Virus record (IMG/VR): IMGVR_UViG_3300043823_000620
Coordinates: 1 to 36,990 of that record
DNA from: a virus
Reading direction: 5' to 3' (one strand)
Length of the DNA: 36,990 nucleotides
Part shown: positions 17,542 through 35,770 of the stretch, in pieces
Layout of the letters: each line of letters starts with the position of its first letter
How positions within the stretch are numbered: position 1 is the stretch's first letter
Notes under the pieces: generated by a model
The model's input: the letters and a program-made list of their open reading frames with translations, nothing else
What the model was told of the DNA's origin: nothing
Databases searched by the model: none
Position numbers and translations under genes: made by a program

Positions 17542-17742
17542 TTATTGCTTCGCCTTTAATGCGGTGAAAAGCCTCCACAAGTCGCTGAAGTTTCTTCTGA
17601 GCTTCCTTTGCTCAAAAAAACGATCACAAGCCGCTCCGACCTCGTGAGATAGCTTGTCGTTCATGCGTTCACTGCGCTTGTGGCGTGTGTATGCAATCTC
17701 CTCCTTGGAAATGTGCGTTATTGATCCGTTGCGCTTGATCAT
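17542..17742 (-). CDS. Small basic protein, last gene of early operon
   Basis: 66 aa, basic and helical (KEEIAYTRHKRSERMNDKL ... RNFSDLWRLFTALKAKQ). The start overlaps the preceding stop by ATGA. No family recognised. It is the final gene of the coupled early block before the non-coding region. Confidence 0.6.
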   Translation of the reverse strand: MIKRNGSITHISKEEIAYTRHKRSERMNDKLSHEVGAACDRFFEQRKLRRNFSDLWRLFTALKAKQ

Positions 17743-18161
17743 TGGAGCGCTTGGTAAAGTTCAGCCATTGGCTTCAGAAGTGAAACGGCACGTTTTTTCT
17801 GCTCCGGCGACCATGCTTCAATTTTCGTCCCCATTTTTCGCTTCCAAGTTAGGAACGACGTGTAAGTGCTTTCTAGGGTCACGAGAGCAACTGACTTGTC
17901 GTCTGGGTTGAGTTCTGGCCTTTCCTCTGGTGCTGATAAACCGAGGGACATCTCAAGTTGGACTTCGGTATCGGCAACGAACTCCATGCCGAATCGGTTG
18001 ATTCCTGCATCCCTGGAATGCTTCAGGAGCTTTGTTCCGAGGTATTTAGCTGCAACGCATTTGCTGTGGATTTCTGTCCACTCTGCGGTGGTTAGCTTTG
18101 GATCATCGAGTCTGTTGATAATTTCGGTGATGAGTGGGTTATTGATGGATGATAGTTGCAT
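17739..18161 (-). CDS. Early protein of unknown function
   Basis: 140 aa starting MQLSSINNPLITEIINRLDD. The frame continues upstream, but ATG at 18161 is 4 nt after the previous stop, so the shorter start is used. Predominantly helical, with TTAEWTEIHSKCVAAKYLGT and a second half with EQKKRAVSLLKPM. No domain recognised. The leader carries the AAACCAAATAA junction seen at neighbouring gene ends. Confidence 0.6.
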   Translation of the reverse strand: MQLSSINNPLITEIINRLDDPKLTTAEWTEIHSKCVAAKYLGTKLLKHSRDAGINRFGMEFVADTEVQLEMSLGLSAPEERPELNPDDKSVALVTLESTYTSFLTWKRKMGTKIEAWSPEQKKRAVSLLKPMAELYQALQ

Positions 18162-18165
18162 GGTT

Positions 18166-18474
18166 TTATTTGGTTTCGGGGTTGAGGGTTTCCTCGATCT
18201 CTTCAAGTTCTGCCCACATTTCCGGGGCATCGTGGTAAGCAACCTCGCGTGCAAGCTGAATTGCCCGGCGAAGGTTGGATCGAAGCCTCTCGACCTCGGC
18301 CTCCGCTTTCTGCCGTTCCTCTCGTTCGTGGCAGAGGCGGCTTTGAATCCAATACTCACCTGTGATGTTTAAGTAAGTGCCGCATCCAAACTCCAGTTGA
18401 TGCACATGGTGAATGCGGTCTCTGTCCCCGCAATGTGGGCACTTGTCGGTGGTCGTCGTGTCGTTGGGGTTCAT
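18166..18474 (-). CDS. Small zinc-finger plus coiled-coil protein
   Basis: 102 aa starting MNPNDTTTTDKCPHCGD. A CPHC knuckle (12-15), then CGTY and CHE positions, may bind zinc, followed by a charged coiled coil (REERQKAEAEVERLRSNLR) and an acidic end (EELEEIEETLNPETK). ATGA-coupled to its neighbour. Similar in layout to 20330-20758. The start sequence AATGAACCCCAACGACAC recurs at other early genes. Function unknown. Confidence 0.65.
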   Translation of the reverse strand: MNPNDTTTTDKCPHCGDRDRIHHVHQLEFGCGTYLNITGEYWIQSRLCHEREERQKAEAEVERLRSNLRRAIQLAREVAYHDAPEMWAELEEIEETLNPETK

Positions 18475-18842
18475 TTGTTTAGTAGGTCGTGGTATCGGTT
18501 CATAATCTCTCGGACTTCCTGTTCCGTTGGGTAGTCGCGGCGTGTCCACTCATAAAGTTCTTGGATGATCTCTTGGAGGCAGACGTTTTCGGTATGGAGC
18601 TTATCAATTTCAGCTTGAGCATTTTTGCAGGTTAAAAGATGAGCTTTCCTAGCCTTCTTCCAGCCTTCGTGAAGCCCTTGGATAATGTCTTCTGCTTGTG
18701 CGATCCGATCAGTTGCTCGGTTGAGTTCGCGTTCAAGGTTTCTTGAGCATTTCAATACTGCCTCATAGGAGTATTCCTCATACTTGTCAGAGTTGTGCGC
18801 CTCATCTGTGCGCGGGGTCGGGGTGTCGTTGGGGTTATTCAT
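18471..18842 (-). CDS. Coiled-coil protein with TPRTDE start
   Basis: 123 aa starting MNNPNDTPTPRTDEAHN. ATG at 18842 shares bases with the stop of the upstream gene (ATGAATAA). The TPRTD(A/E) opening is common among small phage proteins of unknown role. The rest is a long coiled coil (LERELNRATDRIAQAEDIIQ ...) ending with a short EVREIMNRYHDLLNK helix. Confidence 0.6.
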   Translation of the reverse strand: MNNPNDTPTPRTDEAHNSDKYEEYSYEAVLKCSRNLERELNRATDRIAQAEDIIQGLHEGWKKARKAHLLTCKNAQAEIDKLHTENVCLQEIIQELYEWTRRDYPTEQEVREIMNRYHDLLNK

Positions 18843-18996
18843 CATCTTTGATTTCTGTTGGGCATTCGTGTATAAGCTCCCACTTAACCATCTCAAGCAC
18901 CCCGAGCGTTTGGGCGATTGTCAGCTTTCCATATCGTGTGCGGATGATGTTGTGGAGATCCTGCTTGAAGTATTCCTGTTCGTCGTTGGGGTTCAT
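18835..18996 (-). CDS. Short early protein (53 aa)
   Basis: 53 aa, starts MNPNDEQEYFKQDLHNIIRT and ends ECPTEIKDDE; helical. It overlaps the next gene by 8 bp and its start shares the AAATGAACCCCAACGA junction. Codon pattern and junction conservation support it as a real gene. No family recognised. Confidence 0.6.
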   Translation of the reverse strand: MNPNDEQEYFKQDLHNIIRTRYGKLTIAQTLGVLEMVKWELIHECPTEIKDDE

Positions 18997-19005
18997 TTGA
19001 TTGAG

Positions 19006-19227
19006 CTAATGAGTGTGGCTGCGGCGAACCATCCCTGCCCATCTTTTGTATAATGGAGTCAGCTTTCCATCCACGCATCCAAAATGAATCGGGCTTCTTC
19101 CTCCATTTGTTTGTAGTGATGCGGCCCGTTTTCCCCGACAAGCGATAGAGCAACAGGTTGATTTTGCTCTCGCTCGTGCGAGGTATTGTTTCCCGCAAAC
19201 AATGCAGTTATTTTGTATCGTCTTCAT
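19006..19227 (-). CDS. Small zinc-finger-like basic protein
   Basis: 73 aa, basic. CIVCGKQY (8-15) followed by STCCSIAC (about 23-30) forms a C-x2-C ... C-x3/4-C pattern, then a basic tail. Phages often carry such short zinc fingers next to HNH or homing-type proteins, but there is no nuclease motif here. Overlaps the previous gene by 20 bp. Confidence 0.6.
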   Translation of the reverse strand: MKTIQNNCIVCGKQYLARARAKSTCCSIACRGKRAASLQTNGGRSPIHFGCVDGKLTPLYKRWAGMVRRSHTH

Positions 19228-19567
19228 TCCAGAGGGATAGTGTTTTAAGGAAAGCCTCGGCTCGTTGTGCGGCGGTTGCGGTGCAAAGTTCGAAATCAGA
19301 GATCCGCCAGTAATCTCTTTTATTGGGCGCGCCGATTACCGATTGCAGCCTGTTTGAATAAACAGATGTTTTACCCAATACCTTCTCCGCCTCGTGCATG
19401 GCGTTGAGGTCGCCGTGGTAGTTTGGGATCGGAACACCACAACGAATTAACGGGTGATTTCCTTGGTAGAATCCAACTCCATCAGCATGAGGCTTCCACC
19501 CACACGCTTCAGCGATGCGGCGGTTGATTTCTTGTGGTGTCATGGTCGTCGTGTTGTTTGGGTTCAT
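19208..19567 (-). CDS. Early protein of unknown function
   Basis: 119 aa starting MNPNNTTTMTPQEINRRIAE. Contains CGWKPHADGVGFYQGNHPL, a WRISDFELCTATAAQRAEAF segment of the type seen in phage hypothetical proteins (substrate unknown), and ends NEDDTK. ATG 19567 overlaps the prior stop by ATGA; the frame upstream of it belongs to the neighbouring gene. Confidence 0.6.
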   Translation of the reverse strand: MNPNNTTTMTPQEINRRIAEACGWKPHADGVGFYQGNHPLIRCGVPIPNYHGDLNAMHEAEKVLGKTSVYSNRLQSVIGAPNKRDYWRISDFELCTATAAQRAEAFLKTLSLWNEDDTK

Positions 19568-19800
19568 TGGCCTTTGTAATAGTGGAGGACTAGGGTAAGT
19601 GCGTTGAGGAGTTCTTTCTCGTCTTCGAGATACCATGATTTGTCCCTGCCCTCTTTGATTTCCTGTGAGTATCGGGCGACCCAAGTGTGACGGTCTTGTA
19701 TGCACCTTTGGAGCGAGATGATAACTAGCTGATCTTCCCAAGGTTTTGATGGGTCAAATACGGCATCGGTTCGTGGTGTCATCGTGTCGTTGTGGTTCAT
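19564..19800 (-). CDS. TPRTDA-type small protein
   Basis: 78 aa starting MNHNDTMTPRTDAVFDPSKP. The TPRTDA opening recurs in the gene at 18471-18842, and the two probably share origin at the N-terminus. The rest is helical with several Trp (WEDQLVIISLQRCIQDRHTW). ATGA-coupled on both sides. Function unknown. Confidence 0.6.
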   Translation of the reverse strand: MNHNDTMTPRTDAVFDPSKPWEDQLVIISLQRCIQDRHTWVARYSQEIKEGRDKSWYLEDEKELLNALTLVLHYYKGQ

Positions 19801-20333
19801 TTGGTTTCTGAGTCGAGATTGATGAAAATCTGAGGGTATCGGCGGAGAAGCTCCGCGTTTTGTACGGCCCCTTCTGCGGCAATTGCTGCGGCACTCCTTG
19901 CAGCGGCACTCCTTGCGGCGGCACTTGCGCCCCATGCGGCGACACTTGCGGCACTCCTTGCGGCGGCACTTGCGCCCCATGCGGCGGCCCATGCGTCATT
20001 TGCGGCGGCACATGCGGCGGCACTTGCGGCTTCCAACTCCTCCCTTGTCGCTTCGCCGTTAGCATATCTCTCTGCGACATCCAGCGCGGCGATCGACCTT
20101 GGATCTTGCATTAGGTGCTGCACTCGACGGGCGCACCAGACTGCGAAAAGTCGCTGGTCACGCTCTGAGGCGACCCCCCCCCGAGAAAATATCCAGATTC
20201 TCCATTCCGGCTTGAGGTCGGTACGAGTCCAGAGTTCGGACATGTTTGTAAGCCCTAGTGAGAAGGCCCATCTCCGTCCCTCGGGGCAGGCGTCAAATTG
20301 GCCGCAGAATTGAGTTATGGTAATGTCGTTCAT
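19797..20333 (-). CDS. Ala-rich repeat protein
   Basis: 178 aa. The N-terminal half has RLFAVWCARRVQHLMQDPRSIAALDVAERYANGEATREEL, a conserved block of a known family of phage/bacterial proteins of unknown function. It is followed by an Ala-rich tract of AAxAA/AWGASAAARSAA repeats (about 105-160) encoded by tandem GC-rich DNA at 19880-20035. A run of eight C at about 20168-20175 codes for Gly residues. Ends FINLDSETK. ATGA-coupled. Confidence 0.65.
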   Translation of the reverse strand: MNDITITQFCGQFDACPEGRRWAFSLGLTNMSELWTRTDLKPEWRIWIFSRGGVASERDQRLFAVWCARRVQHLMQDPRSIAALDVAERYANGEATREELEAASAAACAAANDAWAAAWGASAAARSAASVAAWGASAAARSAAARSAAAIAAEGAVQNAELLRRYPQIFINLDSETK

Positions 20334-20758
20334 TTTGTTTCGGGTAGTGTTGCCTTGATTGCGTTGAGTTGGGCGCGGGAGATGCCCTGAACGGAACGGC
20401 GTCCCAGATCGTCAGGGTTGAGTAATTCGTCGCAAACATCCTCCGCAATCTCTACGGTGCGGCGAAGGTCTTTCTGCGTAGCCTCAAGCGTTGTCTCTGA
20501 CATGGTTGCTCGTTGCTTCCAGCCGGCCAGCAAGCGGTTAAGCTCTGCGACCTCGGCCTTTAACTTATCCATCTCTTCCTTGGCTCCGGCGATAATAGTT
20601 GATTGCGCTATGTTGATTGACTCAAGTCTAGCGACCTCGGACTCTAGTTTTTCCGATCGTTCGTTGGAATGCTTCCACGCGGCCACTAGACAGCAACATT
20701 CGCTGTGTTGATCTGCGAGGCAGTACGGGCATGAGGGGAGCGTTTCGTTGGTGTTCAT
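20330..20758 (-). CDS. Zinc-knuckle and coiled-coil protein
   Basis: 142 aa. CPYC (10-13) and CCC near 25-27 make a possible zinc site, followed by a long coiled coil (EKLESEVARLESINIAQ ... KLKAEVAELNRLLAGW) and a conserved-looking helix near the end (GISRAQLNAIKATLPETK). Same plan as 18166-18474. ATGA-coupled. Function unknown. Confidence 0.6.
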   Translation of the reverse strand: MNTNETLPSCPYCLADQHSECCCLVAAWKHSNERSEKLESEVARLESINIAQSTIIAGAKEEMDKLKAEVAELNRLLAGWKQRATMSETTLEATQKDLRRTVEIAEDVCDELLNPDDLGRRSVQGISRAQLNAIKATLPETK

Positions 20759-21276
20759 TTGGTTCTCGATTTGTTGTAGGCAGCCCTTTTAAGAGCCGTG
20801 AAGGGGTCTGTGGCTCGTTTTTGGAACGTTTGCCGTGATTCGTCCCGCTTTCGGAACTTGGTGATCGTAAACTTGTCTGATCCTTCGGATAGGTAATCGC
20901 TCCATGCGGTCACCCAGTGGGAGATCGAGGCGCGTTCCATGTTAAGCATCCGGGCGATTTCAGCTTGTGAATGAAATCCATTCACCTCATCCAGCCCTCC
21001 GGCACAAGCGAGGCCGTAAATGCTGGCGCGGCTCGGATGTTCCAAAAGCTTACTGATGACACGAACAAAGAGTTCTCGACTATTGCCGGCATGGTTATCG
21101 CGCTCCTGACGGAGCTTGATGATGACACGCCGCGCTACAACGACGGAACACTCAAGCTCTTCAGCAAGAATCTCCTCCTCCGTATCGATTTCTCCGGCGA
21201 TGTCAGGTGTATATGCGCTTTCCAGCACATTATTCACCCATGCACGGTTAGCTGCTTGGGGTGATGCAGAGATCAT
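20755..21276 (-). CDS. Helix-turn-helix DNA-binding protein
   Basis: 173 aa. A helix-turn-helix at about 102-124 (HSQAEIARMLNMERASISHW) fits a sequence-specific DNA binder, and a second helical region at 35-60 (EEILAEELECSVVVARRVI) may be another HTH. The C-terminus is basic (NKSRTK). Embedded in the early operon; it could regulate early genes or act in replication. ATGA overlaps at both ends. Confidence 0.6.
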   Translation of the reverse strand: MISASPQAANRAWVNNVLESAYTPDIAGEIDTEEEILAEELECSVVVARRVIIKLRQERDNHAGNSRELFVRVISKLLEHPSRASIYGLACAGGLDEVNGFHSQAEIARMLNMERASISHWVTAWSDYLSEGSDKFTITKFRKRDESRQTFQKRATDPFTALKRAAYNKSRTK

Positions 21277-21500
21277 GCGTCTTGTGTCGGTTCGCCCGAC
21301 TCGGATTGAGTTGATGTGATGAAAGTCTGAACGAAATCAGCGATCGCCTTTCTGGAATCTTCGACGCCTTGTTCATATCCGCAATCGAATCCAAACTTCC
21401 CGAAATCCTCATGGGTTGGGATGTGAGAGCCGGATTCGCCTCCGAGAAAGCGGATCCCATGTTGCTGCCACCACTGCTGCTTTTTGATAGGGTTAGTCAT
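21273..21500 (-). CDS. Small early protein
   Basis: 75 aa starting MTNPIKKQQWWQQHGIRFLG. The central FGFDCGYEQGVEDSRKAIADF looks like a short helical domain. The start overlaps the replication gene stop by ATGA. No family recognised. Confidence 0.55.
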   Translation of the reverse strand: MTNPIKKQQWWQQHGIRFLGGESGSHIPTHEDFGKFGFDCGYEQGVEDSRKAIADFVQTFITSTQSESGEPTQDA

Positions 21501-22618
21501 AATGCGATTGCTTGGGGTTGGTTTTTGGTTTTTAGGTACTGCTTCTGAACGTGAAGGGGCCACTGGTTGAATGGAACATCCTCCATGCCCTCGTAACCTT
21601 CAGAGGAAAGCCAAGCCCTGGCATCGGTTTCATTCACCAACGGGACTTGTTTCTTTTCCTCCGATTTCGGCTTCGGGGTGTAGGCCGGAGCGTCTTGCCA
21701 GCGTCGTTCTTGCAGCCATACCCAAGGCGAGGGGATGAATTTTCCGTTATCCTGTTTCCACTCCTTTGAGTGTTTAAAAGCCTCCACGGCGTTAAGTAAG
21801 TTAGAAACAGGCGGAAGATTATGCCTAACTTCAGACCATGCCGACTCCGTGCGGTATCGGTTCTTTCTCCGTTCTTCAGGATAGGCGTTCCAAAACTCCT
21901 CAAACCCATCCACCCATGATTTTTCTTTTATAGTATTCTCTGTCTCTGTCTCTGTCTCTGTCTCTTCTCTACTCTCCTCTACTCTGTCTCTCCGAGGGGT
22001 TTCAATATCAGCTACTGGTACAAGTTGCTCCGCCTGCGCAGGAATCGGCTCCGCCTGCGCAGGAATCGGCTCCGCCTGCGCAGCATGCAACCTTGCCCTC
22101 TTGCTTCTATTGCATGGGCGGCAAAGAAGCTGAATGTTATCAATTCCAGATTCTCCACCTTTTGAAACAGGTATTATGTGATCAAATTCTATGCTTTCAA
22201 AAGCTCCACATTTTATGCAAATACCTCGATCTCGAAGCCAGACGTCTCTTTTTACCTTGTCTGATATATGCCTTGACCCATAACCATTGTTCTTGGCTAT
22301 ATCTTTGGCTTTGGCTGTTGTTGTTAGATTTACTGATTCGCAAGCATCTCCTGTCTCAAGCCAATGGTTCAGCTTCAAAAGCGATGTAGAGACAACATCT
22401 TCTGAAACTCTTAACCTGAACGAAATCGTCTTAATTTCTGGAAGATTTCCTTCATTTTCACTGGCCAGAAGCCAAAGCATCACAAGCATCTTTGCAGCCT
22501 CTGGTTCGAGGGAATGCCACTCGTGATCGTCTAGCAGGTCCCGATAAAGTTTGATCCATGGTGGACGCCTGTCCTTGAAGTGCTGGTGGCGTGACCAGTT
22601 CTTGATTCGGTAATTCAT
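21497..22618 (-). CDS. Replication organiser-like protein with HNH nuclease domain
   Basis: 373 aa from ATG 22618 (ATGA-coupled). Residues 1-90 (RIKNWSRHQHFKDRRPPWIKL ... RLRVSEDVV) match the winged-helix N-terminus of phage replication-initiation/organiser proteins. Residues 124-175 are an HNH domain: Cys134/Cys137, Asp146-His147, Asn161, Cys166/Cys169. A repetitive linker follows (AQAEPIP repeats 180-197, ET dipeptides 218-227). Residues 238-308 (FEEFWNAYPEERRKNR ... FIPSPWVWLQERRWQD) match the C-terminal block of such proteins, usually thought to load helicase. The HNH stretch is AT-richer than its flanks, suggesting insertion. Confidence 0.7.
   Translation of the reverse strand: MNYRIKNWSRHQHFKDRRPPWIKLYRDLLDDHEWHSLEPEAAKMLVMLWLLASENEGNLPEIKTISFRLRVSEDVVSTSLLKLNHWLETGDACESVNLTTTAKAKDIAKNNGYGSRHISDKVKRDVWLRDRGICIKCGAFESIEFDHIIPVSKGGESGIDNIQLLCRPCNRSKRARLHAAQAEPIPAQAEPIPAQAEQLVPVADIETPRRDRVEESREETETETETENTIKEKSWVDGFEEFWNAYPEERRKNRYRTESAWSEVRHNLPPVSNLLNAVEAFKHSKEWKQDNGKFIPSPWVWLQERRWQDAPAYTPKPKSEEKKQVPLVNETDARAWLSSEGYEGMEDVPFNQWPLHVQKQYLKTKNQPQAIAL
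21937..21960. repeat. Hexanucleotide repeat (TCTCTG)4
   Basis: Four perfect copies inside the replication gene, encoding alternating Glu-Thr on the minus strand. The length is a multiple of three, so copy changes alter only the linker. Likely a slippage-prone linker region. Confidence 0.7.
22028..22083. repeat. 21-bp tandem repeat encoding AQAEPIP
   Basis: Two full copies and a 14-bp partial copy of a 21-bp unit. Encodes a Pro/Glu linker between the HNH and the C-terminal domain of the replication protein. Confidence 0.75.
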
Positions 22619-22944
22619 GCGGCGCGGCGATGCCATTGTCCGGTCGTGCGCTGAAGGCGTTCCAGCATCCGCTTGATCTGCGAATCATACCGACCCCGCC
22701 ATTCCCCGAATTCCTCCGGGGTCAGGCGTGAAGTCAGTTTGTAGCCGGAATCCGTTCCGATGATACGACCATCGGAGGCCTCGGCCAGCTTGCGGATATA
22801 TCGGTCATCCATGTCGAGGATGGCCGCGATGCGCTTGGCCGTCATCCATGAGGACGCCACGCGAAGCATCTCCTCAAGACGGGAGAGATCCTGTTCGATA
22901 TTGCGCTGCTTGGCCTTGAAAAGACCCATCTGGACGGCGATCAT
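22615..22944 (-). CDS. Small helix-turn-helix protein
   Basis: 109 aa with an HTH-like segment at about 34-56 (MTAKRIAAILDMDDRYIRKL), a strand-turn after it, and a basic C-terminus (QRTTGQWHRRAA). Coupled by ATGA to the replication protein downstream. It could be a small DNA-binding replication accessory or regulator. Confidence 0.6.
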   Translation of the reverse strand: MIAVQMGLFKAKQRNIEQDLSRLEEMLRVASSWMTAKRIAAILDMDDRYIRKLAEASDGRIIGTDSGYKLTSRLTPEEFGEWRGRYDSQIKRMLERLQRTTGQWHRRAA

Positions 22945-23222
22945 GCAAACTCCTTTCGCGATTCATGTTCACGATGGAACTGCTCTAGTTCTCGCTCCAG
23001 TTGTGCTATCCGGTTTCGTTGCCTACTGATCTCGTTGTGGAAAAAGTTCAGCACTTCTTTTTGCCTTTGAATCAGTGCCTCTTCTTTGGTTTTGAACCAT
23101 GAGGATTCAGAGTGGCGGCCTTTAAGTTCCTGTTTCTTTTCCCACTCCATGATGTCGTCCTGAATCTCGGCATGGCGTTGTTCCGGCGACTGACCGCCGC
23201 ATATCACGTGAACGACTCTCAT
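22941..23222 (-). CDS. Coiled-coil protein upstream of HTH protein
   Basis: 93 aa, almost wholly helical. A charged coiled coil spans about 45-90 (IQRQKEVLNFFHNEISRQ ... LERELEQFHREHE). ATGA overlaps both ends. No domain recognised. Confidence 0.6.
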   Translation of the reverse strand: MRVVHVICGGQSPEQRHAEIQDDIMEWEKKQELKGRHSESSWFKTKEEALIQRQKEVLNFFHNEISRQRNRIAQLERELEQFHREHESRKEFA

Positions 23223-24037
23223 GCGGCCTCCTTTCCGGCGATTTCATCCCACTTGGTGACGAGTCGCTTGATGACGTTTTTGGGTAGGTCTGCAACGTAT
23301 TCGGCGTTGCCCTTATTCGCTCCCTTTCGGTTGACGAATCCAATAACAACCGCCTCAGGAATGCCATCGGCGTCCATGAGCTTAAAGAGCCTCTCAAGAT
23401 CCGAGTTCGGAGTTTCATCGCAAGTCACATCCACCTTGACGGGGGCGGGGAGTGCCGGTGATGCTTCCGACTTCGTGGCTTCAACCTCGACCGCTGCCTC
23501 GATTACCTTTTCCTCACTTCTCACGGCGCGGAAGGGTGACGGGGTAGATGGGCGAGGGGATTCAGGTGCGAAGTCTGCAACCTCTTCAGGCGTATAAACT
23601 CCGCTTGTCACGGCAGGGAAAACGGCTCGGACGCCCTCGCTGATGCACCTTGCGGTCAGCATCTGCCGCGGGTATTTCAGCCACTGGTTTGCATAGATTC
23701 CGGCGCGCTTGGCGTCGTCGATGCTCCATGTCACTTGGAGACTCCCTCCCTGCGGGTGGCTGAATGTGCCGGAGACTCGCGTGTCGCTTCGTTCCTTCCA
23801 TTCTACCGATCCGCCGGCAGCTTGGAATCGTGCAAGGATCGCGTCTGCTCTGAGGGCCGGCCTTCCGTTGATGATATGGTACTCCTTCGCCGCCGATGCC
23901 GGGTGGCGTCCCTCGGACTGCGAGACCAAGAACAGGGCCAGAGCCTGCTCTGGTGTCTTAAGCCCGAAAAGACCCGACTTGGCGATAGCTCCGGCCATGC
24001 GCTCCATATCGGTGAGCGGGATGATTGCGTTGCTCAT
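23219..24037 (-). CDS. RecT-like single-strand annealing protein
   Basis: 272 aa. The first 150 residues have the pattern of RecT-family annealing proteins: a helical start, SQSEGRHPASAAKEYHIING, GRPALRADAILARF, strand pairs, then WSIDDAKRAGI and KYPRQMLTARCISEGVRAVFP. The variable C-terminus includes an acidic/Pro linker and a helical end. It is flanked by an SSB-like gene and a PD-(D/E)XK nuclease, which together make a recombination module. It is the only gene with a well-spaced AGGAGG before ATG 24037. Confidence 0.7.
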   Translation of the reverse strand: MSNAIIPLTDMERMAGAIAKSGLFGLKTPEQALALFLVSQSEGRHPASAAKEYHIINGRPALRADAILARFQAAGGSVEWKERSDTRVSGTFSHPQGGSLQVTWSIDDAKRAGIYANQWLKYPRQMLTARCISEGVRAVFPAVTSGVYTPEEVADFAPESPRPSTPSPFRAVRSEEKVIEAAVEVEATKSEASPALPAPVKVDVTCDETPNSDLERLFKLMDADGIPEAVVIGFVNRKGANKGNAEYVADLPKNVIKRLVTKWDEIAGKEAA

Positions 24038-24062: not shown

Positions 24063-24341
24063 TTAGAACGGCAGATCGTCGTCTGCGTCAGTTTCCGGCT
24101 GGAAGGCATTTGCCTTGGACGTGTTGTGGGCGGCTTGAGTGGCCGTCTGCTGTTGCTGGACTTCCTTGGGCTGAAGTTTCAGCGAAAGGTATTTTCCTCC
24201 GGTGTCACGATCCTCGTTGATCCATGCGGAAACCCAATATTCCTGTCCTTCCTCCATCGTGACCTTGCCCCGGTAATCCGGGCGCGTTTCGACTCCTTGC
24301 TTGTCATTCTTGCGAATGCTTCCTGTCAGTGGCTTTGCCAT
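24063..24341 (-). CDS. SSB-like single-stranded DNA-binding protein
   Basis: 92 aa. Beta-rich core (TMEEGQEYWVSAWINEDR ... YLSLKLQPKE) of OB-fold type, then a Gln/Ala-rich linker and an acidic tip DADDDLPF, the interaction tail typical of SSB proteins. Shorter than bacterial SSB. Between nuclease and annealing genes. SD-less A-rich leader. Confidence 0.65.
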   Translation of the reverse strand: MAKPLTGSIRKNDKQGVETRPDYRGKVTMEEGQEYWVSAWINEDRDTGGKYLSLKLQPKEVQQQQTATQAAHNTSKANAFQPETDADDDLPF

Positions 24342-24360: not shown

Positions 24361-24714
24361 CTAAGCCTCAACGGCCTCGGCGGTTTTGATTGAGGCGACC
24401 AGATCGGAACGCCGCAAAATGTCTAAAAAGTGATTGGCGGGGATGATGCAGATCCACGGGCGACCATTCCGCTTATGAGCCACCACGGGGATCTTTGATC
24501 CGGCGTCATTGCTGGCCTGAACAAGCCATCCGTAGGGGTTTCCAGATTCAACACGCTTGACCTCCCAATGGACGGTGGGAAGGGACGGACAAACGACATC
24601 GGGAGATTCGCTTCCTCCGCAAAATTGCTGGCCGCGCCGAGCAGGGAATCCGGCCTCACGAAGTTGATCGCGCCAGTCGCGCTCTCCTCGGGCTCCCTTG
24701 GATCGGCGATTCAT
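24361..24714 (-). CDS. PD-(D/E)XK endonuclease, Holliday-junction-resolvase-like
   Basis: 117 aa from ATG 24714, coupled by ATGA to the preceding mini-gene. Catalytic pattern: Glu11 (RGERDW), Asp39 (SPDV), Glu51-x-Lys53 (HWEVKRVE). The size and the N-terminal RRSKGARGERDW motif fit small resolvase-like nucleases of phages, which clear junctions before packaging. No separate Holliday resolvase was found. Confidence 0.75.
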   Translation of the reverse strand: MNRRSKGARGERDWRDQLREAGFPARRGQQFCGGSESPDVVCPSLPTVHWEVKRVESGNPYGWLVQASNDAGSKIPVVAHKRNGRPWICIIPANHFLDILRRSDLVASIKTAEAVEA

Positions 24715-24800
24715 CGTCCACCTCCTCTCTTGCAAACTTCCATCCAGAGGATGATTGCCGTCACCCCAATCAATGCGGAATAGAACGGTCCGACATTCAT
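24711..24800 (-). CDS. 29-aa membrane peptide
   Basis: Starts MNVGPFYSALIGVTAIILW, a single hydrophobic helix, and ends in a short basic tail. It overlaps both neighbours by ATGA, which argues for translation. Function unknown. Confidence 0.5.
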   Translation of the reverse strand: MNVGPFYSALIGVTAIILWMEVCKRGGGR

Positions 24801-32692: not shown

Positions 32693-35600
32693 TCACCCGA
32701 ACAACGGGGTCACGAGGGCAGAGATCGGTCTCACCACATCCACCTCGAAGGTGGCCGAGGTCGCACTGACGGTGGCCGGGCCGATGCTGTAGGGATTGGG
32801 CATGGTCCATTTGATCTCCCCGAGGAGCTTGACGGTCGTGCCAGAGGAGGTCTCGTTGGCATCGAGGAGGGCGGAGATCGCAGAGGAATCCATGGAGACG
32901 TAAATGAGTTGGAAATCTTCCCCAGACGGCTGGGTGAAGGTCGAGGTCGAGGCAATGATGGTATCGGCATCAAATTGCCGCAGGGTCATACCGAGGGAGG
33001 AGAACTGCAGTCCCTTGATGACGGGGGTCTGCACTCCTCCGACGAGTCCGCTGAAGAAGAGGCGGATCATGAGGTCGTCGCCTTCCTTCACGAGCAAGGG
33101 GGATCCCGTGACGGCGCGGGTGACGAAATCGACCGTCAGCGAGGCACTCGGCGTCAGGGTGCTGTTCGCCTGGATGACGGTGATGGTTCCGGTGACTTCC
33201 GGGGCGGCGGTGAAGGCGCTGTTCCCCGCCTGATCGGCAGCGATGACGATCTGGCCGAGCCCGGTCATGGTCAGATAATTTCCATTCAGCGTGCCGGGAC
33301 CGCTCACTATACTGAGAGTCACCGGGAGGCCCGAGGTGGCAGCGGGAGGGGTGAGCAAATAGGGAGTCGCGCTGTAGGAAAGGCTCGTCGCTGGGATGGG
33401 AGCGATCACCTGAGAACCCTGCGCCACGGTGATCGAGACGGTCTGCTGCGGAGCGGCAAGGAAATTGCTGCCGCCGGGTTGATTCGCGGCGAGGGTGAGG
33501 GTTCCGACGGATGTCGGGGTGATTTTATTCCCCGAAATCGTTGCAGTGCCGCTCAACGCGGTGAGGATGACCGGCAGGCCTGATGAGGCGGTCGGGAGGG
33601 TGATCGTAAAGGGAACCCCCGCGACCTGATTGCCAATGCTCCCGAATGCGGAAATCGTCTGGGTCTGAATTCCCGCCGTGACGGAGACATCAACCTCCGC
33701 AGCCGCAGCATAGAGGAAATTCCCCGCCTGATTCGCAGCGAGCACGATGGTTCCGGCGCCGGTCGGCGTGACGGTCGTGCCGCTGATGGTGGCGGGGCCG
33801 CTTTTTACAGTAACCGTCACCGGGAGGCCGCTCGAGGAGGTTGGCGCGGTGATCGTGAAGGGATTGGTCGTGCCGCCGGGGCCAGCAGGAGCGGGGAAGG
33901 TGATGGTCTGCGCGACATCCCCCACCTGAAAGCTGGTCGTGACCTGAGTGGCCGCCAGGAAGCTGCTATTCCCCGCCTGGTTCGCCGCCAGCACGACGGT
34001 TCCATAGGTACTGCCGAGGGTGAGGGTGTTCCCACTGATGGTGGCGGGGCCACTCACGACGCTGAGGGTCACCGGGAGTCCGCTCGAGGAGAGAGGCGGG
34101 ACGACTGTGAGCGAGGTCGAGGGAAGTTGGTTCGGAATGGCTCCGAAAGCCGCAATCGTCTGGGTCTGCGGGTAGCCGACATAGGAGATGCCTCCTGAAA
34201 CCGACAACCATGCGGGCTGAGGATTTAGGCATGGGTAATTGACAATCAGTGCACCCTGAATTGTTTCAGTCCAAGATGCAGGACTGTTAAAGTAACACCC
34301 GTTGAAAAGATACGCGTTGGATTTAAGATCGAAAGCTGTTGCCGTAATATCTATAGAAAAACGATTGGCATAGGATGTAAAAAGCCCAAAATATGCCGAC
34401 CCGTATTGTAAAGTACCTGCGAGGGTGAGTTCAGCATCGAAATAAACGGTCGAACTGGTTCCAGGCAATGAAGGCGCAGGGACGCTATGAGCGGAGTCGA
34501 GCCACCAGTTCCCCAAGGTGGAGGGATTTTTATCCCCGACCGCGTTGTTGTAATAGAACGAATTGGTCAGGACGAGGGTGCCCGAGATGGTCGCCGGGGT
34601 ATAGTTCGGATTCGTGATGGTGGCGACGACTGCGTAGCTCGCCGCCGTGGAGGGGACGGCCGTGCTCCCATTGTAAGTGATCGAATAGGCGAGACCCGAG
34701 GGGTTCGTCGTGACGGAAGCATTGACCGGGTTCCCAGTCACCGGCTGAAGCAGATTGGACAAGGAGATCGTCGCGGATGCCTGGTAAATGGCAATCGTGG
34801 CGCTGGCCGAGAGAGGAACCACCGGCGTGTCGGTCTGGGGAGCGAAAATTCCGGTGCTGAACAGGCCTCCACTGGTTGCGATGATGTCGGCATGGGCTGC
34901 GGTCCAGACCATGTAGTAGTTCCCCGCATTCACCGGGACCGAGGTGGTGATATTGCTGGCACTGGTCAGTGTCCAATATCCCCCTCCAGAGATTTTTGTA
35001 TAAACCGCAGAAATGGGACTGGTGGAGTAACCGACCTGAGTGGTCCAGTTGGAATCCGGGCTTGTCGGATTCGGGAGGGTGATTGAGACGGCGGTGCCGT
35101 CGTAGACCTTGCTGATGTTGGCAGCCAGGTTGATCACGGTCTGCTGGAGGACGGGAATCGATGTCGTTAAGGTAGGCGCAGCGGCATAGGTCGAATTCCC
35201 GGCCTGATCGGCATTCAGGACAATGGTCCCCGTGGCGGTGGGGGTGATGGTGTAGCTGCCGGCGGAATTGCTGGCGATCGTCGCAGGTCCGGAACCAATG
35301 GAAAAAGTGACCGGAAGCCCCGAAGTGGACGCCGGAGGTGTCAGGGTAAACGGGGATCCGTTGTACGCTGCCGGAACCGAAAAACCATAGATCAGCTGAT
35401 TCGGACTGGTCGGCACGGTGGTGCCGGAGGTGAGCGTCACCGAATAGGCATTACTCGAAGCAATCGAGGAAGCGGCATACCAGACAAGTCCCGCCGATGA
35501 GGAGGAAGCAATGCCGGTGAAATAAGCTGCTAAAGCAGGAGGGGTGGGAGTTGTAACTGAAATGAGAATTGCCGAATTCGGGTTCAGCGTCAGAGAGAGC

Positions 35601-35770
35601 GGGAAATCTCCGACATTTGTATGAATCGCGCCGTTGACGAGGACGGCAATGCCCCCCCCAAATTGCGATTCAGAAATCGCAATGGTGGCCGGAGTTGAGA
35701 GGGTATTAACGATGACCCCCAATGCCTCGTCGCCGAGGCCGGAATATGAAAGCTGCTGGGAAAAACTCAT
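32693..35770 (-). CDS. Large Ig-like/MBG-type adhesin-fibre protein
   Basis: 1025 aa. At least five copies of an Ig-like unit with the signature (S)SGLPVTxxxxSGPATI...GTIVLAANQAGNSxxxAA (about 113-205 and again between about 545 and 900), an MBG-type unit (AANISKVYDGT) near 205-400, and a C-terminal domain with GDDLMIRLFFSG and DADTIIASTSTF. Such repeats are known as long, stalk-forming surface modules. It is probably a side-tail fibre or adhesin that extends from the tail. The first 100 residues are unlike the repeats and may bind the virion. Confidence 0.75.
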   Translation of the reverse strand: MSFSQQLSYSGLGDEALGVIVNTLSTPATIAISESQFGGGIAVLVNGAIHTNVGDFPLSLTLNPNSAILISVTTPTPPALAAYFTGIASSSSAGLVWYAASSIASSNAYSVTLTSGTTVPTSPNQLIYGFSVPAAYNGSPFTLTPPASTSGLPVTFSIGSGPATIASNSAGSYTITPTATGTIVLNADQAGNSTYAAAPTLTTSIPVLQQTVINLAANISKVYDGTAVSITLPNPTSPDSNWTTQVGYSTSPISAVYTKISGGGYWTLTSASNITTSVPVNAGNYYMVWTAAHADIIATSGGLFSTGIFAPQTDTPVVPLSASATIAIYQASATISLSNLLQPVTGNPVNASVTTNPSGLAYSITYNGSTAVPSTAASYAVVATITNPNYTPATISGTLVLTNSFYYNNAVGDKNPSTLGNWWLDSAHSVPAPSLPGTSSTVYFDAELTLAGTLQYGSAYFGLFTSYANRFSIDITATAFDLKSNAYLFNGCYFNSPASWTETIQGALIVNYPCLNPQPAWLSVSGGISYVGYPQTQTIAAFGAIPNQLPSTSLTVVPPLSSSGLPVTLSVVSGPATISGNTLTLGSTYGTVVLAANQAGNSSFLAATQVTTSFQVGDVAQTITFPAPAGPGGTTNPFTITAPTSSSGLPVTVTVKSGPATISGTTVTPTGAGTIVLAANQAGNFLYAAAAEVDVSVTAGIQTQTISAFGSIGNQVAGVPFTITLPTASSGLPVILTALSGTATISGNKITPTSVGTLTLAANQPGGSNFLAAPQQTVSITVAQGSQVIAPIPATSLSYSATPYLLTPPAATSGLPVTLSIVSGPGTLNGNYLTMTGLGQIVIAADQAGNSAFTAAPEVTGTITVIQANSTLTPSASLTVDFVTRAVTGSPLLVKEGDDLMIRLFFSGLVGGVQTPVIKGLQFSSLGMTLRQFDADTIIASTSTFTQPSGEDFQLIYVSMDSSAISALLDANETSSGTTVKLLGEIKWTMPNPYSIGPATVSATSATFEVDVVRPISALVTPLFG

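Follow-up and report, generated by a model that had tools for sequence, protein, structure and literature searches.

We describe a block of eight small genes at positions 18166..20758, on the minus strand of a viral DNA stretch of 36,990 nucleotides (nt; IMG/VR record IMGVR_UViG_3300043823_000620, hereafter the window). The block is probably an acquired array of modular genes, belonging to a cassette pool of many uncultured, mostly freshwater-type phages and recombining at short seams. The seams are shared, gene order is shuffled between phages, gene heads and tails are reassorted, exact footprints lie at the seams, and the block is present in the window and absent from its relatives. More tentatively, such arrays may represent dedicated combinatorial gene assembly, in which head and tail modules would be joined at two fixed DNA seams and traded among unrelated phages, with the seam DNA, and not just its peptide, under selection, much as in antigen-variation or polymorphic-toxin loci. 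Loci and records fetched for comparison carry L-numbers (L103, L225 etc.). The records are fragments from metagenomes, genes in the other phages were called mechanically, and kinship among loci inflates formal significance; same-contig control sets were used where possible.

The block and its backbone flanks

The block lies between two backbone genes, both on the minus strand. Upstream is G173 (20755..21276; 173 amino acids), which ends SRTK at the left seam and has homologs in 90 fetched loci, the best of them in L225 at 62% identity. Downstream is ADTE (17739..18161; 140 amino acids), with homologs in 91 fetched loci. Homologs of both genes were fetched from IMG/VR; a single-protein scan with ADTE returned no matches, and an alignment-based search worked. 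The block is absent from 84 of 84 relative loci with both flanks (some of which share a contig), and G173 and ADTE are adjacent there, the gap between the matched segments having a median of 111 nt and a maximum of 213 nt. In many of these array-less loci the stop codon of G173 lies within the start of ADTE (ATGCAACTAA), and the AACCATGCAACTA that follows the right edge of the block in the window is found at the uninterrupted site in L010. Two array-less relatives encode a TerL with 77% and 79% amino acid identity to that of the window, so the difference in block presence is fairly recent. The closest relative by the flanking genes, L225 (62% and 52% identical), also has G173 and ADTE adjacent, and carries an array of different genes about 0.2 kb after ADTE. 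From L225 and the 84 array-less loci, it follows that arrays are present or absent, and variably placed, around the same backbone genes. The block is acquired or lost as a whole and, as the first-pass annotation had anticipated, related phages gain, lose or reorder whole genes with the junctions intact; a constant gene content and order, with junctions alike through codon bias only, was not seen.

All genes of the block are on the minus strand. From the left seam onwards, g20330 (20330..20758; MNTNETLPSCPYC...LPETK) has a CxxC head and a coiled coil, with partial homologs in L103 and L129. Next, g19797 (19797..20333; MNDITITQF..., ending DSETK) encodes an Ala-rich repeat domain that matches phrog_18326 (E=1e-22, low complexity); its Ala-rich stretch (19860-20035) consists of 21/24-nt tandem repeats. 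The third gene, g19564 (19564..19800), has the leader MNHNDT before MTPRTDAV... and ends YKGQ, and g19208 (19208..19567) has the leader MNPNNTTT before a family that usually starts at an inner ATG (MTPQEINRRIAEACGW). An ORF (open reading frame) without the leader, the eighth of the block, is HNH/zinc-binding-like (19006..19227; phrog_1271, E=0.0036, a weak match). It is followed by a small gene (18835..18996) with the leader MNPND before EQEYFKQDL..., whose homologs in L192, L193 and L196 have other leaders; by g18471 (18471..18842), with the leader MNNPND, a PRTDE head and a widespread tail module at residues 37-123; and by g18166 (18166..18474), with the leader MNPNDTTTT, a CPHCG head, an exact mid-gene linker, the ending NPETK and a homolog in L198 (51%). 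The bodies had been described as different from one another, which is correct for most of them; two pairs are weakly similar, namely g18166 and g20330 (E=0.003) and g18471 and g19564 (E=0.001).

Seams, reassortment and footprints

Each of the seven starts singled out by the first-pass annotation (18474, 18842, 18996, 19567, 19800, 20333 and 20758) is a true ORF start on the minus strand with a shared leader. They read ATGAA... and mostly lie at an ATGA stop/start overlap; the overlap of start 18842 with its neighbour is 8 nt rather than 4. The leader CAAATGAACCCCAACGACACG (18458..18478, minus strand) recurs at 18996, 19567, 19800 and 20758 and partly at 18842 and 20333, so that its presence at all seven starts holds with two qualifications: 20333 has only ATGAACGAC, and 18842 carries an additional codon (ATGAATAACCCCAACGAC). 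The consensus AAATGAACCCCAACGAC, with at most three mismatches, has five matches in the window (18460, 18982, 19553, 19786 and 20744), every one at a start, where 0.16 are expected in shuffles and five were reached in 0 of 100. Compared pairwise, the leaders of the seven starts score 10.06 on average, whereas random sets of seven other genes of the window score 0.2 (standard deviation 0.67, maximum 1.99). The ending (E)TK ascribed to the upstream genes was found as ETK at 20330, 19797 and 18166 and as TK at 20755 and 19208, but the remaining genes end GQ, DE or NK. Exact GAAACCAAATGAAC occurs once in the window, at 19802, with variants at the other junctions. The left seam, GAGAACCAAATGAACACCAACGA (20742..20772, minus strand), is an ATGA stop/start overlap, and the right seam is CCCCGAAACCAAATAAAACCATGCAACTA (18150..18186, minus strand); the block has GAGAACCAAATGA at its left edge and GAAACCAAATAA at its right, the latter closing the block at 18166. 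The leader is common to the whole phage pool and is not particular to the genome of the window. It partly travels with the gene: leader similarity is 8.02 where the bodies are homologous, against 6.25 for unrelated genes within one genome. The exact 17-mer junction was rejected as a marker of arrays, its nine viral hits being scattered single starts in unrelated contigs.

A second seam lies inside the genes. Its 14-nt core, GAGGTCGNNAGGCT, encodes EV(E/A)RL. In 43.4 kb of arrays there are 54 copies, all of them in frame on the coding strand. There were no copies in the remaining 125.9 kb of the same contigs or in 881 kb of array-less relatives, and one copy in 627 kb of other loci. This DNA encodes 54 of the 71 EVxRL peptides, where codon resampling, with the peptide fixed and the codon usage of array genes, gave 1.7 expected and at most 7 in 2000 simulations. 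Identity between loci drops to near background about 25 nt either side of the core. Codon identity between loci, calculated without the loci fetched by seam DNA, is 0.78 for EAEVERL (0.35 expected), which is conserved without those loci too, and 0.87 for NEVARLR (0.32 expected); the start motif DTPRTDA is intermediate (0.57, 0.33 expected), and the control, the coiled-coil motif QLEREL of that set, shows the expected level (0.375, 0.35 expected). An exact 20-mer of the mid-gene seam was found in 55 viral-contig stretches, many of them within arrays of the same type. The sole exact copy of the linker in the window, GAGGTCGAGAGGCT (EVERL; 18284..18297, minus strand), is in g18166, and g20330 has two degenerate copies, at 20638 and 20554.

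Cutting the genes at the mid-gene seam showed that the two halves are not inherited together. Only 6 of 85 pairs with similar heads had similar tails, and 6 of 100 pairs with similar tails had similar heads, whereas ordinary genes of the same contigs, when halved, were co-similar in 39 of 44 and 39 of 50 cases. Besides whole genes, gene halves are shuffled, which the first-pass annotation had missed. Gene order in the arrays is also far less conserved than in the backbone: neighbours were retained in 12 of 100 cases (12%) against 42 of 120 (35%) at similar protein identity (p=7e-5), and in 4.6% against 36% without two near-duplicate loci. L192 and L193 have 2 kb of array in common at 99.6% identity, yet a block that stands before this stretch in one locus stands after it in the other.

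Exact matches of 34, 32, 29 and 38 nt between phages are located at seams, where they span gene starts or tails with unrelated DNA flanking. The 34-nt footprint, CGCCGCAGCCACACTCATTAGCTCAATCAAATGA (18993..19026, minus strand), is shared with L103 and has unrelated DNA on either side; it consists of the tail of an L103 membrane gene plus ATGA. L103 has the whole gene, and in the window the front is replaced by the HNH-like ORF, which occupies its place. The leader and head of g18166 have a 29-nt exact match to L103. In L103 the end of a g20330-related gene (...LPETK) is fused directly to MTPQEIN; in the window these halves stand at two separate junctions, so that half-junctions pair with different partners in the two phages. 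Across 22 array regions, a fraction of 0.211 of the shared-segment ends lies no more than 25 nt from a gene start, against 0.130 under random placement (maximum of 1000 draws, 0.180), and the fraction at the mid-gene linker is 0.15 against 0.077. Breakpoints are therefore enriched at the shared linkers over random placement, with a moderate effect.

The genes of the block belong to a wider pool, being found elsewhere in other orders and partnerships in phages without detectable terminase kinship: no TerL homologous to that of the window was detectable in the 15 array records searched. A search of viral contigs with g19208 confirmed 160 relatives, and 80 of these were retained. The inner start (MTPQEIN...) carries the ATG in 73 of the 80, which makes the MNPNNTTT of the window an added front. 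L103, among the few loci with a similar g19208 front, has an array of the same type, with the leaders MNDTTT and MTPNTTT, CPHCG heads, coiled coils and ETK ends, and this array resumes at the opposite end of its contig. In another group of phages (L107, L108, L117, L119, L121, L145, L148 and L151) the context GAAAAAACAATAAAATATGATT just before the g19208 homolog is nearly identical, perhaps as a promoter-like or start-associated repeat. The tail of g18471 was found in 17 viral loci at 57-81% protein identity with varied heads, and the tail module has 78-87% DNA identity over more than 200 nt in array records. Side-by-side listing placed one tail (GWKKARKAH...RRDYPTE...) behind at least 14 distinct heads. 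The array leader MNPDTTK stands in front of an RNA ligase domain (PF09414, E=1.2e-13) at L182:6462-7094, indicating that an enzyme of a known family was taken into an array.

Among cultured phages (50,697 phage records) the block DNA had no match, and neither did the two proteins searched against them, g18471 and g19208; nor did g18471 match anything in 84,980 host species genomes. We infer a host in the Verrucomicrobiota from an ADTE homolog in one contig of a Verrucomicrobia metagenome-assembled genome and from the best match of the window terminase, an Akkermansia phage at 36%. The first-pass annotation had proposed cassette exchange at short linkers, by which the phage could swap anti-host genes. 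The exchange is well supported, but the anti-host use is not: Pfam, PHROGs and PADLOC linked none of the proteins of the window convincingly to a known inhibitor. One array gene of L103 is near Lar (PF14354, 26.0 bits, below the cut-off of 28.6).

Explanations for the seams

The leader itself looks like a translation start site that works without a Shine-Dalgarno (SD) sequence, a property absent from the first-pass annotation. The leaders are A/C-rich, T-poor and nearly unfolded, with a mean minimum free energy of -0.33 kcal/mol against -7.87 kcal/mol for other genes of the window; an SD-like motif occurs at only 0.14 of the block starts, the repeat lies mainly downstream of the ATG, and the base after the ATG is A in 7 of 7 starts. 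ACA and ACAA motifs enhance initiation and can act without an SD sequence (PMC3879156). The junctions might then be alike only as translation elements, with SD-less, ATGA-overlapped genes converging on an AC-rich unstructured start. We consider this unlikely as the whole explanation, since control genes of the same SD-poor phages lack the leader (scores of 0.38-0.68 against 5.3-10), and since it leaves unexplained the mid-gene DNA linker, the exact footprints of 29-38 nt and the reassortment. The two roles are compatible, as a body swapped in at such a seam can also be expressed from it.

Ordinary mosaicism would attribute the pattern to random illegitimate recombination followed by selection in favour of breaks between genes or domains, with no part for the seams. 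Known phage genomes are mosaic, and selection alone predicts breaks at gene borders. The shared sequence, however, crosses the border into the next leader, synonymous sites are conserved in DTPRTDA, EAEVERL and NEVARLR in contrast to the control QLEREL, and such seams were not seen in other regions of the same contigs; we regard this explanation as quite improbable. The leader and EVxRL could also be conserved for protein function, for example as a common docking or oligomerisation motif, given that both are in frame and that EVxRL lies in a predicted long helix (residues 39-82 of g18166, for which structure prediction without an alignment gave a helix and a disordered front only). This is very unlikely, as synonymous positions are conserved and one DNA core encodes two peptides, EVERL and EVARL. 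Tandem duplication and divergence of one ancestral small gene with its ends kept, to which the two weakly similar gene pairs and the doubled tail modules of some phages (e.g. L181, L184 and L185) might point, is most improbable and already largely refuted, in that most bodies are mutually unrelated yet have homologs in other phages, and heads and tails are not co-inherited.

Under the preferred explanation of recombination at the seams, each gene starts at an ATGA stop/start overlap followed by the AC-rich leader, and many genes carry the second short seam (GAGGTCGNNAGGCT, EVxRL in a coiled coil) midway. Recombination at the start seam would swap whole genes, and recombination at the mid-gene seam would swap gene halves. 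Because both seams are near-identical in sequence and always in frame, swaps would leave the reading frame and the operon unbroken, and because the leader would supply an unstructured, SD-less start, a swapped-in body could be translated immediately. A phage annealing recombinase that acts on short homologies is the likely enzyme, RecT-like here and of the ERF or other types elsewhere.

The window encodes three relevant proteins 2.5-4 kb upstream of the block, on the minus strand: the candidate recombinase, which is a RecT-like single-stranded DNA annealing protein (23219..24037; phrog_561, E=4e-29), a single-strand DNA binding protein (24063..24341; phrog_7364, E=6e-10) and a RusA-like Holliday junction resolvase (24361..24735; phrog_244, E=1.5e-20). 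The phrog_561 type is common to the window and the array phages L181, L182, L188 and L196, and three array-less relatives, whose flanking genes are similar, have the Bet type. The match between the recombinase type of the window and that of array phages is suggestive, and the recombination gene of the window may itself have been replaced. The records checked almost entirely lack the dedicated tyrosine or serine recombinase that an integron or site-specific shufflon would encode in the same element: a serine resolvase was found in none of 19 records, and a tyrosine integrase in one of 16 array records.

Several observations weigh against recombination at the seams. Of the 12 array records that reach 31 kb, 8 encode RecT-like, ERF or AAA_24 proteins, and annealing types were found in 5 of 5 array-less relatives checked; an annealing recombinase, being equally common in relatives without arrays, does not discriminate as an array marker, and its presence proves nothing. 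Match ends are concentrated at seams moderately, not overwhelmingly, and selection is expected to produce part of those at gene borders, so the match-end test alone is not decisive. The longest exact match between any two junctions of the window is 18 nt, below the 23-27 bp at which Red-beta pairs efficiently (PMC3945230); the copies may have decayed, or shorter homology may suffice. T4 recombines at microhomologies of 6-10 bp (PMC9391042), and the seams common to different phages attain 29-38 nt. Homogenisation of the leader by each genome did not hold as a general rule, there being only a weak excess in similarity within genomes (5.69) over that between them (5.29; P 0.048). Exchange was not directly observed, the nearest to a before/after pair being L192 and L193.

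Other features of the window lie farther from the block. A replication-type protein (21497-22636, minus strand) has an HNH domain between its N-terminal (phrog_26426) and C-terminal (phrog_9474) parts, as if inserted, and contains three 21-nt tandem repeats (22027-22089) encoding an AEPIPAQ-like unit. At 32693-35770 (minus strand) a protein of 1025 amino acids carries an MBG domain (PF18887, E=1.9e-17) and is possibly a tail or adhesion protein.

Implications and known systems

The rapid origin of new accessory genes in phages is usually put down to random recombination and selection. Seams that can be read from the DNA, are conserved at synonymous sites and cross between terminase-unrelated phages make linker-guided assembly directly testable. 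They also provide a sequence tag for locating such arrays in metagenomes, and the arrays point to unstudied small phage proteins that are repeatedly reshuffled.

The lambda ninR region, with its 'interlinked genes', was reportedly described by Kroger and Hobom in 1982 and by Clark et al. in 2001, and lambdoid boundary sequences are said to have been proposed there to promote modular exchange. The block resembles ninR in having small non-structural genes with stop/start overlaps, similar short border sequences and recombination genes nearby; its small ATGA-overlapping genes carry conserved border leaders. It differs in the second seam inside the genes, which yields combinatorial head/tail genes, and in a pool that spans phages without a shared terminase. 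Neither the block DNA nor the g18471 and g19208 proteins showed homology to lambdoid nin genes among the 50,697 phage records.

The SAS and ESAS repeats of Cluster K mycobacteriophages (PMC3203893) likewise place a short repeated sequence at the starts of numerous small genes from different families, both within one genome and across related ones. SAS (GGGATAGGAGCCC), however, directly precedes the start codon, with inverted repeats added in ESAS, whereas the repeat described here enters the coding sequence and has no SD sequence. Relaxed homologous recombination by Rad52-like phage recombinases (PMC2327257, PMC3945230) is a tested mechanism for mosaic exchange at short or diverged sequences, and the window has a RecT-like gene, but those studies concern general mosaicism and not dedicated seams. 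In T4, counter-defence accessory genes are amplified or lost via short repeats under selection (PMC9391042); the microhomologies of T4 are incidental and vary with each event, whereas the seams of these arrays are conserved and in frame.

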